From the NCBI GenBank assembly GCA_003313425.1, contig NHZP01000054.1:248001-312000 (forward strand): 64,000 bases of DNA, in the 5' to 3' direction. Below, piece by piece: positions 25,122 through 54,253 of the stretch. This stretch comes from Pseudopyrenochaeta lycopersici. Lineage: Eukaryota > Ascomycota > Dothideomycetes > Pleosporales > Pseudopyrenochaetaceae. Made by a program: the position numbers and the translations under genes. Below the pieces are notes generated by a model. It was not told where the DNA came from. It did no database searches and worked only from the letters and a program-made list of their open reading frames with translations. Position 1 is the stretch's first letter. Every line of letters starts with the position of its first letter.

Positions 25122-25212
25122 CTCTTCTTCTTCTTCTTCTTCTTCTTCTTCTTCTTCTTCTTCTTCTTCTTCTTCTTCTTCTTCTTCTTCTTCTTCTTCT
25201 TCTTCTTCTTCT
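25122..25212 (+). repeat. TTC microsatellite
   Basis: About 30 uninterrupted TTC units. The poly-Ser and poly-Leu open frames across it are artefacts of the repeat. It lies just left of the truncated inverted gene copy. Confidence 0.97.
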
Positions 25213-25470
25213 GCAGAAGAAAAATTCACCACGATATCATGAATTCAAGTAACAAAACCGAAAGCAATAATCAAGATGCCCGTGCCTGGAGTTTTGCATG
25301 TGTTACGAGCTCCAATTAGGGAATGAAATGTTCGGACTTGTGAATTCATCGCCAACATCCGATATTCGGATAGATTGGCGGTATCGTCAGACATCGGCTT
25401 TTTTCGCCTCGTTCTTTTCTGGTTGGAATCATCATCGATGCTCATGTCAGGGTCGTCTTCTCGGTCTCGG

Positions 25471-25650
25471 TCCTCTTCTTCTCGGTCCTCTTCTTCTCGG
25501 TCCTCTTCTTCTCGGTCCTCTTCTTCTCGGTCCTCTTCTTCTCGGTCCTCTTCTTCTCGGTCCTCTTCTTCTCGGTCCTCTTCTTCTCGGTCCTCTTCTT
25601 CTCGGTCCTCTTCTTCTCGGTCCTCTTCTTCTCGGTCCTCTTCTTCTCTA
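25471..25650. repeat. Minisatellite, twelve 15-bp units
   Basis: Twelve nearly perfect copies of TCCTCTTCTTCTCGG. Read on the minus strand in the parental frame they encode Glu-Glu-Glu-Asp-Arg units, replacing the 12-bp Asp-Arg-Glu-Asp units of the parental gene. Confidence 0.95.
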
Positions 25651-43174: not shown

Positions 43175-43860
43175 TTCGCCACTTAAGCCTCGCCGGAAGC
43201 AGACGAACGCCTCGATCACGCTAGCAGGGAGGACGGCGGAACCGCTCTGGCCACACCTTTGTGAGGTGGCGAATTCTGTAAGAGGTGAGTTGGTTGACTG
43301 GAGGCATGGCCAAGGTTGAGTTGGATCGCAAGGCTGCGGGGCTAAAGTCGGCCCGCTTACCAAGACTTCACACCGCCACAGGCCTGGCAGCCACTAAATT
43401 ACGGAGTACACTGTGATGATTATGTGGCTGTTTTGCACTAGCCAGGACTGGCAATCGTTCCGGTTAGAGGTACCAATTGGGGTGGCGACCCTGCATGAAT
43501 TTGCGTGCGACAGCAGACATAAGGCTAGTGAATACTCCTAAGCATCATAGTAAGGTTCTAAGACTTAGATAACACTATTATAAGCATTATAGAGTAGTAA
43601 GAGCTTAATGGTGGTGCTATAGGGAAGGAACGCTGTTTCGCTAAAGAATAAGGCTCTACGAATCAGACGCAAAGGCGACGATGCGTAACGTAATTTTTAG
43701 ATCAAAGGGGTTCTAGATGTCTAGGAATAGCTAAGTTATACTATCTGACTGGTAAAATATAGATAACTAGACATAGGAAGAGTTTCTGATGTATTGAAGT
43801 CTAAGTACCTGTTGGTTTTCTCGCTACGGTGTGGTTCTCGCTACGTAGTGGGGGATGTTA
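43175..43860 (-). repeat. Inverted repeat flanking HET gene 1, right copy
   Basis: Reverse complement of 39705-40389 with scattered differences. Outer end GTAGTGGGGGATGTTA. The two copies delimit a 4156-bp unit. A related copy is at 51500-52133. Confidence 0.88.
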
Positions 43861-43936
43861 TTGCTTGGCAGTCTCTCGCGTGGAGAATTTAGCGGCATTT
43901 ACAGGTCGTGATTAAAGCGTAAAATACTTTAATTTC

Positions 43937-46345: not shown

Positions 46346-46704
46346 ATCAAAAGGCCCGATTGAGCTTGGACTATTGCAGTGGTCTTGAACCCCGTGTCTT
46401 CCAGAAGTACCCGGTTCCAGAATCCTGGTGTACTTCCTTGTCTCTTAGCCTGGTGGTAGACCCACTTCGTGGATGGATCCTTAAATAACCGCAGATCGAA
46501 CACTAGATCCCGCTGTAGGCCTTGACCTGCTAACCCGGTTCAGGGACCCCTAGAAACGCGATCTGTGCATGGCTAAAAGCCGAGGTGCATATCTTGGCCG
46601 AAAATTCTTGGCACAAGCTCATCATCTATACGTGCTCATGTAACGAAGACACATCAATTACAAATCTCGTCATGTACACTTGGGAAGACGTTAGCGACAA
46701 CCCT

Positions 46705-46789
46705 ATGGCCGGTGCGGGTCGGCCATCATCCCCGCTAGCGGTGGCGAGTTGATGTATCTTTCTGTGACATTTGTCTGCTTGTAAGTACC
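46705..46789 (+). repeat. Repeat fragment, inverted relative to 51457-51545
   Basis: TGGCCGGTGCGGGTCGGCCA through GTCTGCTTGTAAGTACC is the reverse complement of 51457-51545. It lies just 3' of HET gene 2, while its partner lies 5' of that gene. Confidence 0.85.
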
Positions 46790-47034
46790 ACTAATTATGT
46801 GGCCACTGGACCCGTTTCGTGCAAGGAGGATATGCGTTGATAAATTGTCTTCCTACAACCAAGCATATGGCAAAACTGGTCGATTTGTTTCATGCAGCAG
46901 TCTTGAACATGAGCTTTATCCACAGTCTGACGCTGTTCAGGTAGACGAAACGTATACGTAGACTATGCTGAGAAATCGACGTTGAGTCCACGTATTCATC
47001 GGTCGCCCCTCCAGATTGTCTGATGCACTGTCGT

Positions 47035-50000
47035 TCACACGACTCGCACGCTGATCCTCTGTCTTACTATGTAACCACTGCGAATCAACCCAATTCCGAC
47101 CCTCCTATACTCGCCATCAACACTAGTTGGCCTGACGACTAGTATGTAGTATTCCTTAACGTCTCTGTTCTTCTTCCTTCCTACGACAACACATTGTTCT
47201 TTACAAAGTTCATCGCCGTCCTCAGTATCGTAATGTATCCAACCTCTTTTCGTTCCGCCGGAATCCAAGACCGCATACTCTTTCCCATGGTGTTCCATCG
47301 TACAATCTCTGAAACCCTCTACGTTGGCAACTAGTGCATGTTCGCGCTCCTCATCGAATCGGAGGTTATTAATCCAATCAACTTCGCCGAAAGGGATATC
47401 TATGAACTGAATGCCTCCACTATATGCCATCCATGACCACGATGGCACATGCCGATTGTTGTACGCAATCTCCTCTATCTTGTTGTCAGACACCTGCCAT
47501 AGGAGATTCCTGTGAAGGTAACGCTGAAAGATCCCGTATCTGCTTTGACACCCTATAGCGCTTGCAATACGATCCGCTAACCCAGATATTGCAATACATC
47601 TATCGGTCTTCACTGTACAGTCTCGCTTCGAGTAGTCCTCAAAGAGAAAGTGAATAAAATCAATAGTACGTCGATTGCCTGATTGGAGGAGACGGCTCGG
47701 GAAGCTTGGATCGAGCGTAAAGTACTTCTTTTCAGATCGGCTGAGGAGGAAGCATCTAGTCAGGAACATGTTGTTTCAGGTGTTATAGAGCTCTTACCAA
47801 TGCAACCTAGTCATATTTTCGCAATACACTCCGTCTCCACATTCGAAGTATGTCTGATTGGCGCTGAAGTGGACGGTCCGTCGTGCTAAAACCCTTTCTT
47901 GCATCACCCATGCTCGCGTGTTAAGCTGAGCCTTCCCCACATCATTGTCAAAATCATCCATATCGGCGCTGATATAGAACTGTTGACCTGAGGCATTTTG
48001 AACAGAGACATACTCGATGCTTACGTCCCGCTCAAGGAACCCCGCGTTGGAATCGACAGCCGAGGTTGCAGCGATTACACAGTATGCCGCCGAAAAGACG
48101 TTCTCCATTCGGCTGGATTCGCGTTTCCAGTCCTTGCCATTGTCCCCGTATTGGATTATACAAATCGAGTCGATCCAGAGGTATGGGACGCCAAGTTCTC
48201 GGGTCACTTTAACAGCGTCCTGGAAGGTCTTTGGCAGTTCAGAGAGGCTAAATCCTCTCAGCCGTCGGCCAACGTTATCCTGGGTTGTACAGAATGCCTT
48301 CTTCTCTTCGACTGAGAGGTCGCCCCAACGATGAGACAAAGCGATGTACTTTTGTCCGTTCATTTGCGAGGCACAATCGAGACGCAAAAAATCTTGACTA
48401 TCTAAATCACCGACGCGGAGGAGTCTCGTCGGCAACGCTGTGCTAGATTCACCTTGGCGATTGTTGCAATCATGGGACTTGTCACACCACCGAAGCCATG
48501 CACGAAGCAATGCAAAACGTGCGGAGTTCTCAGCTTCAGGCACAACTGGGAGGCCAATAGAGATTCGGCACCTAGGAGGAGCCGTGCTTTCTGTAGTGAA
48601 GATATGTAGTAAGTATTGTTCCTGTTTAGTGTATAAGAGGAGTCGAAGACACTCACCTGGATCCGCATAAAACCGCAGAAGGCGCGGGCCAAGAAGTCCT
48701 GCTTTTAGTGCCGCGTCTCTTCGCACAATGTGGATATTTGGGTCGTCACCATTGTGATAGCACCCAAATGCTCCGAGGAGCATTTTACAGAGCCGACAGC
48801 TTTCTGCAGCAATAAGTATATCCGGAAGACTAACTCTGCAATGAGCAGGTGTGATGAAATCCTTGAGGACATCACTACAGCAGGCGCAACACTGAACCAC
48901 CGCAGGTGGCGCGCGCAATGCCGAGTCAGCGTAGAATTGTGTTGCAAAGACATTGTCAGGAACGAGGACCCAGTCGTTGTACTATGTCCAAATCATTATC
49001 GGTCAGAGGAATCATAGGTGGGGGCAATTCGTAGGTCTACTTACACGCTACACCCCCAAATAGAACAGCATTAGTAGCCTCGCATATCGATAATCACAGG
49101 TCTACTTACGTCCTACACCACCAGACACGGCAGCATTAGCAGCAGCCTCGCATATCGAGAGTCACAGGTTTACTTACACCCTACAACAACAAACAAAACA
49201 GCATTAGCAGCAGCCTCGCATATCGAGAGTCGCAAGCCTACTTACATGCTACACCACCAAACACAGCAGCATTAGTAGTAGCCTCGCATATCGAGAGGCA
49301 CAGGTTTACTTACTCGCTACACCACCAGACACAGCAGCATTAGCAGCAGCCTCGCATATCGAGAGTCGCAAGCCTACTTACAAACTACATCACCAGCCAC
49401 AGCAGCATTAGCAGCAGCCTCGCATATCGAGAGTCGCAGGACCACTTACATTCTACAAACCAGACACAGCAGCATTAGCAGCAGCCTCGCATAGCAATGC
49501 TCGCAGGCCAACTTACCGCCTACAACAACAAACAAAACAGCATTAGCAGCCTCGCATATCAAGAGTCATAGGTCTACTTACATTCTACACCACCAGACAC
49601 AGCAGCATTAGCAGCAGCCTCGCATATCAATAATCACAGGTCTACTTACTTCCTACACCACCAGACACAGCAGCATTAGCAGCAGCCTCATATATCGAGA
49701 GTCGCAGGTCTACTTACAACCTACACGAGCAGGCACAACGGAATTAGCAGCAGCCTCATATATCGAGAGTCATAGGTATACTTACCATCTACACCAGCAG
49801 GCACAGCAGCATTAGTAGTAGCCTCGCATATCGAGAGGCACAGGTTTACTTACACCCTACACCACCAGACACAGCAGCATTAGCAGCAGCCTCGCATATC
49901 AAGAGTCACAGGTCTACTTACTTGCTACACCACCAAACACAGCAGCATTAGCAGCAGCCTCGCATATCGAGAGTCGCAAGCCTACTTACAAACTACACCA

Positions 50001-51331
50001 TCAGACACAGCAGCATTAGCAGCAGCCTCGCATATCGAGAGTCGCAAGCCTACTTACTTGCTACACCACCAAACACAGCAGCATTAGTAGTAGCCTCGCA
50101 TATCGCGAGTCACAGGTTTACTTACTTCCTACACCACCAGACACAGCAGCATTAGCAGCAGCCTCGCATATCGAGAGTCGCAAGCCTACTTACAAACTAC
50201 ACCACCAAACACAGCAGCATTAGTAGCAGCCTCGCATAGCAATGCTCGCAGGCCAACTTACCGCCTACAACAACAAACAAAACAGCATTAGCAGCAGCCT
50301 CGCATATCGAGAGTCGCAAGCCTACTTACTTGCTACACCACCAAACACAGCAGCATTAGTAGTAGCCTCGCATATCGAGAGGCACAGGTTTACTTACACC
50401 CTACACCACCAGACACAGCAGCATTAGCAGCAGCCTCGCATATCGAGAGTCGCAAGCCTACTTACAAACTACATCACCAGACACAGCAGCATTAGCAGCA
50501 GCCTCGCATATCGAGAGTCGCAAGCCTACTTACACCCTACATCACCAAACACAGCAGCATTAGTAGTAGCCTCGCATATCGAGAGTCACAGGTTTACTTA
50601 CACCCTACACCACCAGACACAGCAGCATTAGCAGCAGCCTCGCATATGAATAATCACAGGTCTACTTACACCCTACACCACCAGACACGGCAGCATTAGC
50701 AGCAGCCTCGCATATCGAGAGTCGCAAGCCTACTTACTTGCTACACCACCAAACACAGCAGCATTAGTAGTAGCCTCGCATATCGAGAGGTACAGGTTTA
50801 CTTACTTCCTATACCACCAAACACAGCAGCATTAGCAGCAGCCTCGCATATCGAGAGTCGCAAGCCTACTTACTTGCTACACCACCAAACACAGCAGCAT
50901 TAGTAGTAGCCTCGCATATCGAGAGGCACAGGTTTACTTACACCCTACACCACCAGACACAGCAGCATTAGCAGCAGCCTCGCATATCGAGAGTCGCAAG
51001 CCTACTTACACCCTACATCACCAAACACAGCAGCATTAGTAGTAGCCTCGCATATCGAGAGTCACAGGTTTACTTACACCCTACAACACCAGGCACATCA
51101 GCGTTAGCACTAGCCTCGCATGGCAAGAGGCTCAGGTGTATATACTTCCTGCAGCCAAATATATTAGTATACTGTTAATTATTCCCGTCCAGAACACTTG
51201 CCTTCTGTTCTTTCTGTCACCTATAGTCAAATCTTCTGCCAAGGGCTGTGGCTTACTGTAAACGACCAATTATCCTCTCCTTCTTTACTCACTGAACGGA
51301 ATAGAAACTTAGCCACGCAAGGAAATGACAT
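47035..51331 (-). CDS. HET-domain gene 2 with 32 three-nucleotide exons
   Basis: Proposed exons: 51331-51257 (ATG, 25 codons, MSFPCVAKFLFRSVSKEGED...), then 32 exons of 3 nt from 51148-51146 to 49047-49045, then 48981-48657, 48590-47798 and 47740-47035. All phases agree: the first exon ends in phase 0, every micro-exon is one sense codon, and 48981 enters the HET frame in phase 0 (YNDWVLVPDNVFATQFYADS). Later introns of 66 and 57 nt also fit. Predicted length 664 residues. HET blocks: YIALSHRWGDLS, LPKTFQDAVKVTRELGVPYL, LWIDSICIIQ, MENVFSAAYCVIAATSA, TRAWVMQERVLARRTVHFS, and PSWSWMAYSGG near the C-terminus. A CCACC cluster precedes it. The HET part is certain; the micro-exon part is inference from splice signals. 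Confidence 0.8.
48591..48656 (-). other. In-frame intron inside HET gene 2
   Basis: GTGAGTG donor, ACTTACTAC branch-like site, CTACAG acceptor, 66 nt with no stop, so retention would add 22 residues without breaking the frame. Confidence 0.65.
49020..51125 (-). repeat. Tandem intron/micro-exon array, about 31 units of 68 bp
   Basis: Most units are 68 bp; a few are up to three bases shorter or one longer. On the minus strand each unit reads GTAAGTAR, a CTCTCGATATGCGAG hairpin-like block, CTGCTAATG, then GTGGTGTAG, then three variable bases before the next GTAAGT. Triplets seen (coding strand): GGT 9, CAA 5, TTT 4, GAA 4, GCG 2, AAT 2, and single CGT, CGA, GAC, CAT, GTT, ATG. None is a stop. 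The 65-nt remainder is nearly constant. Units often alternate between two subtypes, giving a 136-bp higher-order repeat. Confidence 0.95.
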
Positions 51332-51456
51332 CCTGTGAACGGTCGTGTAAGTTAGGGTTTATAATATGATGGAAGGTTGCCTCTTATGCTGTGTTTGCGA
51401 ATGCGGGGTAGCTCAACCAACTTCTGCCTAAGTGACTTGGTCCAACAATTAGTTAG

Positions 51457-52133
51457 CGGTACTTACAAGCAGACAAATGTCACAGAAAGATACATCAACT
51501 CGCCACCGCTAGCGGGGATGATGGCCGACCCGCACCGGCCACACCCTTGTGAGGTGGCGAATTCTGTAAGAGGTGAGTTGGTTGACTGGAGGCATGGCCA
51601 AGGTTGAGTTGGATCGCAAGGCTGCGGGGCTAAGGTCGGCCCGCTTGCCAAGACTTCACACCGCCACAGGCCTGGCAGCCACTGAGATGATTATGTGGCT
51701 GTTTTGTACTAGCCAGAACTGGTAATCGTTCCGGTTAGAGGTACCAATTGGGGTGGCGACCCTACATGAATTTGCGTGCGACAGCAGACATAAGGCTAGT
51801 GATAACTCCTAAGCATCGTAGTAAGGTTCTAAGACTTAGATAGCACTATTATAAGCATTATAGAGTAGTAAGAGCTTAATGGTGGTGCTATAGGGAAGGA
51901 ACGCTGTTTCGCTGAAGAATAAGGCTCTCTACGAATCAGGCGCGAAGGCGACGATGCGTAACGTAATTTTTAGATTGAAGGGGTTCTAGATGTCTAGGAA
52001 TAGCTAGGTTATACTATCTGATTGGTAAAATATAGATAGCTAGACATAGGAAGAGTTTCTGATGTGTTGAAGTCTAAGTACCTGTTGGTTTTCTCGCTAC
52101 GGTGTGGTTCTCGCTACGTAGTGGGGGATGTTA
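51457..52133 (-). repeat. Repeat-family copy 5' of HET gene 2
   Basis: 51500-52133 matches the right-hand inverted repeat of HET gene 1 (ending GTAGTGGGGGATGTTA); 51457-51545 matches 46705-46789 in inverse orientation. It lies about 130 bases upstream of the proposed HET 2 start codon. Confidence 0.85.
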
Positions 52134-52149
52134 CTCCAGTTGGTACTAG

Positions 52150-52567
52150 CAGGAGGCCTGCGCAGATGGTGTAGGGGGCTATATGGCTTGATGAACGAGG
52201 GCGGGCAAGGAGGAGCAGGCTAGTCATAATGGAGCGCGATCCTAATGCTCCACAAGGTGGCTACTCCACTGAAAGTTACATTCAAGCCTTAACAGAGGGT
52301 CTCCTGCCTAGCCACCAGCGTTCACAGCTCTTTATGCAGGATAAAACGCGCATCCATACATCAAGAAGGGCAAGGAGCTGGCTAGCTGAGCAGGGTATCA
52401 ACACTATCATCTGGCCACCTTACTCACCAGATCTCAACCCAATTGAGCACCTCTGGTGGCACCTTAAGAAGCGCATGCATCGCTTCTATCCTCAATATAA
52501 CAACTATAGCGTAGCTGAACAAGAGTGGGATGGTTTCTGTAAGGCCTTGAAGAGGTGCTGGCGCAGT
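52150..52567 (+). pseudogene. Tc1/mariner-type transposase, C-terminal part
   Basis: Reads GAIWLDERGRARRSRLVIME, GYSTESYIQALTEGLLP, QLFMQDKTRIHTSRRARSWL, INTIIWPPYSPDLNPIEHLW and HLKKRMHRFYPQ: the second catalytic Asp (MQD) and the third acidic residue (NPIE) of the DDE domain. Upstream, MV-stop-GAIW shows TGG changed to TAG. The N-terminal DNA-binding domain and first Asp are absent. The frame runs on to 52648 only by fusing into the duplicated segment at 52569. Confidence 0.88.
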
Positions 52568-52568
52568 A

Positions 52569-54253
52569 ACCTCGAGTACGGCTGCATTAGTCACTTCGGC
52601 GGAGCCGGGTCAACTCCCCTCCAACCCCAATTATCTTCGGCCGCTTAGTAGTTCTGAGTTTCCGTTCATCATCATTCCAAAAGCAATAAGCAGTTCGGAG
52701 TTTCCTTCCGTTGAACAGCACCCGAAGGTTTTCTATCTCTATTTCTTTACATCCTGTTAAGACTTGGGCGATGTTTATGGTAATACCACAAATTTTGTGT
52801 GAGGCGCTGTTATAGTTACTTATGTTCCTGTAAATTTGCAAAGAATTGAGAGGTACAAATTCAGAGAAGTCCGTACACGGTTGGTTGACTTCAATTTTAA
52901 AGACTCTTTCGGGCCGTCCTCTCATACCATGATCGATGCTACCGTCTTTCAGAAGATGAATCCAAATTATTCTAAACCAAAGATCAATGAGGAGGACGCA
53001 AATCCAATCGCATTATTTAACTTGCTCCGTCCCTCCCAGCCGCAGCCTGAATAGGTCAGACTGCTAGTGTTTAACTCAAACTCCACACTGGCTTTATCTT
53101 CTGTCGTTTCTTCGCACGGAGATCTTCCTCAGGCGCTCTCGAGCTCGTCCTGAGAAATAGTCTCGTTAGCACCGTGCTTGACTGCACTAAAGCCAACACA
53201 CTTACCATGTCCTCGGCCACTCGGTCGATAAATTCTTGTTCGCTCTCCATACTTTGTAGCGCGGAGAATTTAAATGAGGATGTTAAGATCGGGACCGTAT
53301 CGTTTTCCTCTCCCACATCTCCAAATCGATGATCAGGTGTCTTCTCCTCAGTGTCATAAAAGACTTCAAGTACCTCTGTATCAAGGTCGACGACATATGC
53401 AAATTCGCAATACAACCAATCGTTCGCAAAGGAAAGTGCAAGTTTAATTGGGACCTTTCTTTCGTCTTTAGCACGGCTGATTACTTCAAGTATGGCGGCG
53501 CCGGTGTCTCTGGAGAGAGAAGGGCAGAGCCTATCCATGATCTCGCTTGTCAACTTGGACATGGGTTGTGCAGCAAATTCCATCCAGATTTTGCTCTCTA
53601 GTCCGCGTAGCTCATTGATTCGACTTTTGGCCGTAATTAGCTCTTGTTCGGACGCTTCGTAGATGTGCCTAAGTCCATCCTTAAGGCGCTGGATGTTAAT
53701 CGGCACGCGTAAGAATTTCATAAGATTTACCCCTTGGCCCTCAGGGTAGCCATCCCACTGACCGTATTGGGCGATGACGAAGCGACCGTTGTAGAACACG
53801 CAGATAAGGTGACGAGTGCCCATGATTAACGAGTTCAGGCGTTGTGAGCAGTAGACAGAAAAGGATTGAGTAGCAGGGTTGTGTTATGGGAACGATGGGT
53901 GGAGGGATTTGGGGAAAAGGTCTTCAGGTTTGATCCTGCTGGCTCTCACGCTCCACTGCCTCTTATACCCGCTCCAACCCCTGGCAGGAACCCTCCATCA
54001 ACTCTTGCCGCCGGGGCATTTCCTGTATCAAAGCTTTAAGTGCCTAAGCCACACGGGTGTTGGAATCCCGTATTAGCTGTCTCATCAAGCACCTATAGCA
54101 AACAAGGGCCTCTCGTATCGCCATAAAGCATTGGCTTAGATGCATGAGAGACCCAAGCCCGTTGCTCCACTAGGAGATGCGGAACCACGGCTCTACGCCG
54201 GCCTTGTTCTTTTCACCCGCTTCTCTTACCTATGAGGGAGTCTCGCGCTTCTT
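52569..54253. repeat. Segmental duplication, copy 2
   Basis: Direct copy of 8391-10101. It differs by scattered substitutions, a loss of about 18 bases near 54020 and a short loss near 54150. Its left edge is fused to the transposase remnant. Confidence 0.92.
53129..53823 (-). CDS. Conserved MGTRHL-type protein, copy 2
   Basis: Exons 53823-53206 and 53149-53129 with the same 56-nt intron as copy 1; 212 residues. The two products differ at few positions seen by eye, for example KSRINEL against KRRINEL and EFIDRVAEDM against EFLDRVAEDM. Start, splice sites and stop are intact, so both copies could be expressed. Function unknown. Confidence 0.8.

Follow-up and report, generated by a model that had tools for sequence, protein, structure and literature searches.

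Introduction

In Podospora anserina, the allorecognition genes het-d, het-e and het-r (the HNWD genes) encode STAND proteins with a WD-repeat domain, which controls recognition specificity and whose repeats rearrange (PMC2873952). The micro-exon genes (MEGs) of Schistosoma have exons of 3-81 bp and introns of up to 5 kbp (PMC10526429). Functional microexons were previously undescribed in filamentous fungi, according to a report on Trichoderma virens Xlr2, where one 20-nt microexon serves as a switch (PMC11121469). The Hypoxylaceae have stwintrons and sequence-similar introns, that is, multiplied spliceosomal introns with consecutive splicing (PMC9024468, PMC12403724). Here we analyze a 64,000-nt stretch of Pseudopyrenochaeta lycopersici (contig NHZP01000054.1 of assembly GCA_003313425.1, positions 248,001-312,000; the window hereafter) and describe in it a predicted HET gene, coding for a protein with the domain of fungal cell incompatibility, in which an array of one-codon exons, separated by near-identical tandem introns, is placed between exon 1 and the HET-bearing body.

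The window gene and its paralogues share with HNWD genes the rearranging tandem DNA repeats in a gene of the incompatibility type, and a gene with HET, NPHP3_N and WD40 matches (C34) lies between terminal repeats related to those around the window gene. In HNWD, however, one repeat is a whole WD unit, whereas here it is one residue plus an intron, placed before HET; unlike HNWD and fungal NLR proteins, the window model is without NACHT or WD40 in Pfam. As in Schistosoma MEGs, the protein is predicted from very short exons, but these are of 3 nt and alternate, before HET, with near-identical tandem introns of about 50-90 nt. Xlr2 of T. virens likewise concerns a fungal micro-exon overlooked by gene prediction, but a single, non-tandem one. 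With the Hypoxylaceae introns, the array introns share multiplication and sequence similarity. Stwintrons are nested, whereas the introns here are complete and in tandem, one codon apart, and none interrupts another's splice element.

The best explanation overall, which we consider probable, is that the array is a spliced 68-bp minisatellite that would contribute one codon per unit to a tag that varies, on a HET gene that is mobile and likely serves non-self recognition.

Results

A HET gene preceded by predicted one-codon exons

The predicted gene runs on the minus strand from 51331 to 47035, from exon 1 through the array to the HET body and a TGA stop (Table 1). The first array triplet (51148-51146) is GAA, the last (49047-49045) is CGT, and all 32 are sense codons. 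The donor is GTATAT after the first triplet and GTAAGT after the remaining 31, and the 31 inter-triplet introns are 65 nt long, save two of 62 and one of 64. Tandem Repeats Finder, applied to the window, reports 49029-51121 as a repeat of period 68 with 30.9 copies and 84% matches. Because exon 1 ends in phase 0 and the HET exon starts in phase 0, the whole triplet chain is open, and the spliced model of 664 aa is without a stop. Its residues 247-397 match the Pfam profile PF06985 (HET; E 1.4e-28, 100.5 bits against a cut-off of 22.5); no other Pfam domain, be it NACHT or NB-ARC or a repeat of WD40, TPR or ANK type, was found in the 664 residues at E up to 1.

The one-codon exons of the window likely number 33, not 32, since an AAG triplet upstream of the array sits where the paralogous locus L009 starts its array with an additional one-codon exon, AAT, flanked by introns of 52 and 53 nt, and is followed by a GC-AG donor, GCAAGT. 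GCAAGT donors are present in or before the arrays of L011 and L027 as well as at window position 51201, which suggests that at least some donor changes are splice-competent. The tail of exon 1, WSFT, is common to paralogues, which begin MENKWSFT (L010, L012, L016), MEKKWSFT (L013) or MEEEWSFT (L018).

This anatomy had been outlined in an earlier, sequence-only reading of the same DNA, and it holds in every checkable detail: 32 sense triplets between near-identical tandem introns; a donor, a branch site, a TAG acceptor and exactly three bases in each unit, save that the first donor differs (GTATAT); and phase 0 at both 51257 and 48981. The same reading had introns constant and exons variable. 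Mean identity is indeed 0.83 in intron columns outside the splice signals and 0.30-0.41 in triplet columns.

Table 1. Features of the predicted HET gene and its surroundings, in window coordinates
Feature	Position	Strand	Remarks
Exon 1	51257-51331	-	predicted, MSFPCVAKFLFRSVSKEGEDNWSFT; 75 nt, 25 codons, ends in phase 0
Intron before AAG triplet	51256-51205	-	52 nt
Extra one-codon exon AAG (K), likely	51202-51204	-	from sequence; same 52+3+53 layout as L009
Intron after AAG triplet	51201-51149	-	53 nt, GC-AG, donor GCAAGT
Array: 32 one-codon exons and 31 near-identical introns of 62-65 nt	49045-51148	-	predicted peptide EGGGQEQGGGFGQAFEQFQGMVENANFRHGDR
Last array intron	48982-49044	-	63 nt, GTAAGT...ATAG, leads to HET exon
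First body exon of HET gene	48657-48981	-	begins YNDW, phase 0
Ordinary predicted intron	48591-48656	-	66 nt; matching residues missing from homologues P0006 and P0007
Second body exon	47798-48590	-	contains Pfam HET, model residues 247-397, about 48348-47896
Ordinary predicted intron	47741-47797	-	57 nt
Last exon	47035-47740	-	TGA stop codon at 47037-47035
Left terminal-inverted-repeat arm	46697-46797	+	inner part only recognised
Right terminal-inverted-repeat arm	51450-52133	-	inner 101 nt (51450-51550) 94% identical to left arm

The layout recurs at 17 loci

Paralogous loci were retrieved by DNA search and protein search of the 62.7-Mb genome. A strict triple-unit pattern (donor-intron-TAG-NNN-donor-intron-TAG-NNN-donor), which arrays with other donors or acceptors escape, has 29 matches in the window against none in 100 dinucleotide shuffles. 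Genome-wide it has 234 matches (151 + 83), and the same 151 + 83 are counted in 17 array loci, so that the genome total is fully accounted for. Read backwards, or with spacers of 2 nt or 4 nt, the pattern has no match in the genome. The shuffles, the backwards pattern and the spacer counts rule out chance or mis-parsing, and the one-codon-exon layout is confined to these genes so far as the strict pattern detects. A HET match adjoins the array in 16 of the 17 loci, L014 being without one. The array pattern had no match in viral contigs.

A chain finder that requires donor, branch site and acceptor and leaves exon length free from 1 to 40 nt (introns of 50-90 nt in L013) returned exclusively 3-nt exons in the window (32/32), L009 (66/66) and L013 (36/36). 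In several other loci the free chains ran into the flanks and gave other exon lengths, which were excluded from triplet counts. Chains anchored at exon 1 and at the downstream exon closed in 8 of 15 loci. All 195 exons are of 3 nt in L009, L017, L022, L024 and L026 (66, 26, 9, 26 and 68 exons, respectively), as are 32 of 33 in the window, 9 of 10 in L011 and 64 of 68 in L027; we attribute the non-3-nt exons of these last three chains to GC donors or to splice sites in competition.

The predicted array exons are many, short and symmetric (3 nt, phase 0), from 3 in L018 (K-E-C, read by eye) up to 68 in L026, which has 69 predicted introns for its 68 residues. Intron length is off-mode in 91 of 382 introns (12 arrays, leading non-repeat introns counted in). 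The unit is 70 bp in L024 and L026 and 71 bp in L027, and others include the 68 bp of the window; DNA searches gave no cross-matches between 68-, 70- and 71-bp units, yet all keep the 3-nt exon. Introner-type insertion was rejected as the main cause, as triplets travel with their flanking units and the repeats are in tandem. Lone unit matches in the DNA search were limited to C42 and C115:20660.

The triplets behave as codons

We pooled 388 triplets from 13 arrays, with the near-duplicates L012, L016 and L021 excluded. None is a stop codon, against 18.7 expected from position-specific base frequencies, and over the 129 distinct array-by-codon types the absence has a P of 0.0017. The dominant residues are R, E, L, D, G, Y and F. 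A single triplet codes for S or C, against 16.4 expected. In aligned units, column identity is 0.23-0.76 for triplets and averages 0.61-0.93 for intron columns outside the splice signals, with L013 lowest at just 0.61. Intron columns less conserved than the triplet mean are absent from 6 of 8 arrays and make up 5.9% in L010 and 2% in L017. Transitions account for 63-90% of minor alleles in introns and 19-65% in triplets, with the lower share in triplets in all eight arrays, and such differing spectra imply that drift with the mutation spectrum of the introns does not explain the triplets by itself. In 115 pairs of L009 units whose 130 flanking intron bases show 0-3 differences, the triplets differ at a mean of 1.37 of their 3 bases. 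Among 100 one-base steps in the codon networks of 12 arrays, 13 are synonymous against 23.3 expected (P 0.008), and 23 fall on the third position (P 0.016).

The splice signals were tested more freely with a profile that covers the intron interior and leaves out the donor and AG. This profile matched 336 times in 8 arrays, with GT at most 2 nt from the expected donor in 330 cases, GC in 3 and neither in 3, and with AG at most 3 nt from its expected place in 335; the exceptions sit in L017, L024 and L027, where intron length differs. The donor is GTAAGT in 362 of the 431 introns scored.

It could be argued that the array is a non-coding minisatellite within one long intron (51256-48982) that is spliced out in one piece or avoided by starting downstream, and that its triplets are meaningless. 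Phase 0 on both sides would let complete skipping keep the frame, and the annotations of two homologous proteins, P0011 and P0155, show a start resembling exon 1 that leads directly into HET. We think this unlikely, however, in view of the missing stops among 388 triplets, the spacers of 3 nt and never of 2 or 4, the splice signals at nearly every unit, the different substitution spectra of triplets and introns, and the 3-nt rule kept in 68-, 70- and 71-bp units alike.

Alternatively, the triplets may be optional, with alternative splicing picking subsets of them and each cell holding many in-frame tags, a device for splicing diversity and not an evolving tag. Any subset would be in frame, as all units are of phase 0 and 3 nt, and adjacent near-identical donors and acceptors offer many choices, but the strong GTAAGT donors would favour constitutive use, and we regard this possibility as improbable.

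The introns are the conserved part of the units, which would also fit a tandem host of small intron-encoded RNAs in the manner of the SNORD115/116 host gene, with the introns as the product and the triplets as minimal exons. Hosts of this tandem-intron kind exist (PMC11608373). Here, however, Rfam gave no match in 48900-52200 at E 0.5, and four two-unit stretches fold not significantly better than shuffles (z 0.50, -1.49, 2.22 and 0.96), so that a structured or known RNA in the array was rejected. Together with units of 68, 70 and 71 bp without DNA cross-matches and triplets without stops, this leaves an RNA host very hard to credit.

A recent duplicate has probably lost whole units

L010, L012 and L016 are recent duplicates. 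L016 retains 8 of the 31 codons of L012, while two of its flanking stretches match L012 at 98.3% and 98.8% identity. The CCT codon of L016 is preceded by an intron with no differences from the L012 introns before GAT, and a later GAT by an intron with one difference from the L012 intron before GGT. Two or more deletions, joined within introns, have therefore probably taken place in L016; they would have cost 23 codons and kept the frame. In-frame rearrangement by whole units, as in HNWD genes, is found between L016 and L012. It is the best direct view of the proposed mechanism, seen on paralogues and not on the window array.

Traces of the array in other species

The named best protein matches are from Pleosporales and other ascomycetes. 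The protein P0121, from Phaeosphaeriaceae sp. PMI808, starts with MENKWSFT, which is exon 1 of L010, L012 and L016, and continues with translated intron units (EAAANASVLGGV...). A partial signature of translated introns is present in P0040 (also PMI808), P0046 (Macroventuria) and P0132 (Decorospora), which with P0121 make 4 of the 198 proteins compared. These translated introns suggest that annotation misreads the array and that the array likely exists beyond the P. lycopersici genome. A search with the intron-translated part of P0121, among candidates restricted to its length range, returned P0121 itself and nothing else.

The contigs of two further homologues, P0007 and P0083, measure at most 2106 and 2183 nt, respectively, and the residues of the body introns are missing from both proteins, so that they look like transcripts, apparently spliced. 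Right before the HET start, both have residues rich in R, D, E and Y (VQDRDRVVRYEER in P0007, a 43-residue stretch in P0083), which in composition are closer to the array triplets than to background (P 0.0008 and 0.0002). As evidence for translated micro-exons, the two proteins are suggestive. In the predicted structure of P0083, with a mean predicted local distance difference test score (pLDDT) of 82.9, segments 1-5, 7-49 and 58-63 are under pLDDT 50 and the rest is mostly well predicted; the tag position accordingly seems disordered there.

Terminal inverted repeats enclose array genes and other HET genes

The right arm of the window element, out to about 52133, matches the terminal repeat of C13 at 90%. 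A motif of this repeat family, GGCCGG(A/T)GCGGGT(C/T)GGCC, has 38 copies in the genome, and inverted pairs of it enclose genes. The arms around the L009 gene (C51) are 1164 bp long and 99.9% identical, and those around the L027 gene (C13) 627 bp and 97%. Like Tc1/mariner-type elements, the window element, C51 and C13 thus have terminal inverted repeats. TA stands at both tips in C51 and C13, C51 lying within a tandem repeat; in the window no left tip was recognised. Both inner arms surround five array genes (the window, L009, L011, L022 and L027), and a single arm occurs at seven array loci (L013, L014, L015, L017, L018, L020 and L021). The analysed stretches of L010, L012, L016, L019, L024 and L026 hold no arm of the motif family. 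The genes of L015 (1002 bp, 94%) and L024 (72 bp, 93%) lie between inverted repeats of other kinds. A conserved block that had been a candidate promoter element, GGCCGGWGCGGGTYGGCC (272-414 nt before the exon 1 end in the window, L009, L011 and L017), was rejected as such because the genome scan showed inverted pairs of it; it is part of the terminal repeat.

The family also encloses HET genes of other kinds. Between the inverted pair of C34 lies a gene with HET (E 5e-16), NPHP3_N (E 3.3e-37; NACHT-type) and six WD40 stretches. In C25, an enclosed HET open reading frame (ORF) adjoins a TPR-repeat ORF, in C47 and C1 the inverted pairs enclose HET-only genes, and in C37 a DUF7104 repeat gene is enclosed without a HET match. 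Of five single-motif loci analysed in addition, C1 proved to be the inverted pair just mentioned, C6 has phosphorylase and ankyrin ORFs, and C5 a HET-gene fragment; at C23 and C32 nothing comparable was recognised. The terminal repeats look as if they act as a mobile family ferrying probable recognition genes, and the window HET gene is itself likely mobile. The company kept by the array supports a recognition role and does not prove it.

Several further observations concern these elements. The fragment in C5 (L038, C5:1718300-1722800, minus strand) is the 3' part of a HET gene, by eye almost identical to that of L009, and on the same stretch lies a terminal-repeat arm with 97% identity to the C51 arm; recent copying is suggested. 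L015 (C68:174000-181000) is a decayed copy, with 24 in-frame stops in the HET match and GTAAAT as its first array donor; the decay is possibly of the kind left by repeat-induced point mutation. In the window, 43818-43862 and 52091-52133 are same-orientation copies of the terminal-repeat tip with TTCTCGCTACG repeats, and with the former a different element may end on its right side. A 139-aa ORF at 52229-52648, immediately beyond the right arm, has a SPDLNPIEHLWW stretch, which is typical of Tc1-like DDE transposases. Elsewhere in the window, a pure TCT tract of 30 units (25123-25212) lies near a 15-bp repeat of 12.3 perfect units (TCTCGGTCCTCTTCT, 25465-25648).

Discussion

We propose a model in which each 68-bp unit is spliced away except for one codon, and in which the mRNA would read in one frame from exon 1 through 32 or 33 single codons to the HET exon, all units being spliced in the main transcript. 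Crossover or slippage within introns would then add, drop or exchange whole residues. The frame would never shift, since the intron is almost invariant from unit to unit and the exon is always three bases in phase 0. The tag produced in this way, 3 to 68 residues long and likely disordered, may set or tune the specificity of a HET cell-death protein and act in non-self recognition, and the surrounding terminal-inverted-repeat element may have spread the gene. Serial splicing of 3-nt exons, translation and function are predictions from sequence.

Several points weigh against this model. The GT, AG and branch-site A columns are 0.92-1.00 identical, but the chain finder requires all three, so that their near-perfect identity is partly built in, and the intron-interior profile was derived from the same units that it scored. 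Exons of other lengths had been removed from the triplet counts. The tests on codon networks are modest ones that treat steps as independent, and triplets copied along with their units are non-independent too. The youngest pair, L010 and L012, differs at 8 of 1934 intron bases and at 1 of 93 triplet bases (CTG/CTC, synonymous), and so shows no accelerated codon change. The L016 array was possibly shortened by assembly collapse. P0007 and P0083 may stem from genes with ordinary exons, and in P0011 and P0155 the HET exon follows the exon-1-like start directly, which would fit an array that is missing or passed over in splicing. Significant amphipathic periodicity is absent from all eight predicted peptides, for which reason a helical or coiled-coil tag was rejected; opposite charges at i,i+3/4 are in slight excess in L009 alone (P 0.037, uncorrected; 0.16 in L026).

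The sequence-only reading had gone beyond anatomy in calling the array a hypervariable, codon-encoding cassette before an allorecognition-type domain. The cassette itself is well supported by comparison, through the 0 stops in 388 triplets, the exact 3-nt spacing within three intron families, and triplet columns that are the least conserved and have a substitution spectrum of their own. Hypervariability stands between paralogues and in the one recent in-frame loss of 23 codons, and does not extend to the L010/L012 pair with its single synonymous change. The allorecognition-type role is putative, with the HET domain and the company of its inverted-repeat family as its basis. That reading also knew of no fungal system of this build, and in the open-licence PMC literature, to which our search was restricted, we found no one-codon-exon arrays in fungi.

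It is tempting to take a wider view, though we hold it tentatively and at somewhat less than an even chance: a mobile gene family may use a spliced minisatellite to edit a recognition tag of up to 68 residues, one residue at a time and with no frameshift, the introns providing long stretches of homology for recombination and the exons being reduced to single codons, while related elements carry WD40-, TPR- and micro-exon-tagged HET genes as interchangeable non-self-recognition parts.

If the model of a spliced, codon-bearing array is true, L026, with 69 introns for 68 residues, would present a limit case for spliceosomes, which would have to handle 3-nt exons in series. A tandem repeat would diversify a protein by one residue per unit, and the misreadings in annotation, as in P0121 and the other proteins with translated introns, would be explained. 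Variable non-self-recognition genes on terminal-inverted-repeat elements would likely form a further class.

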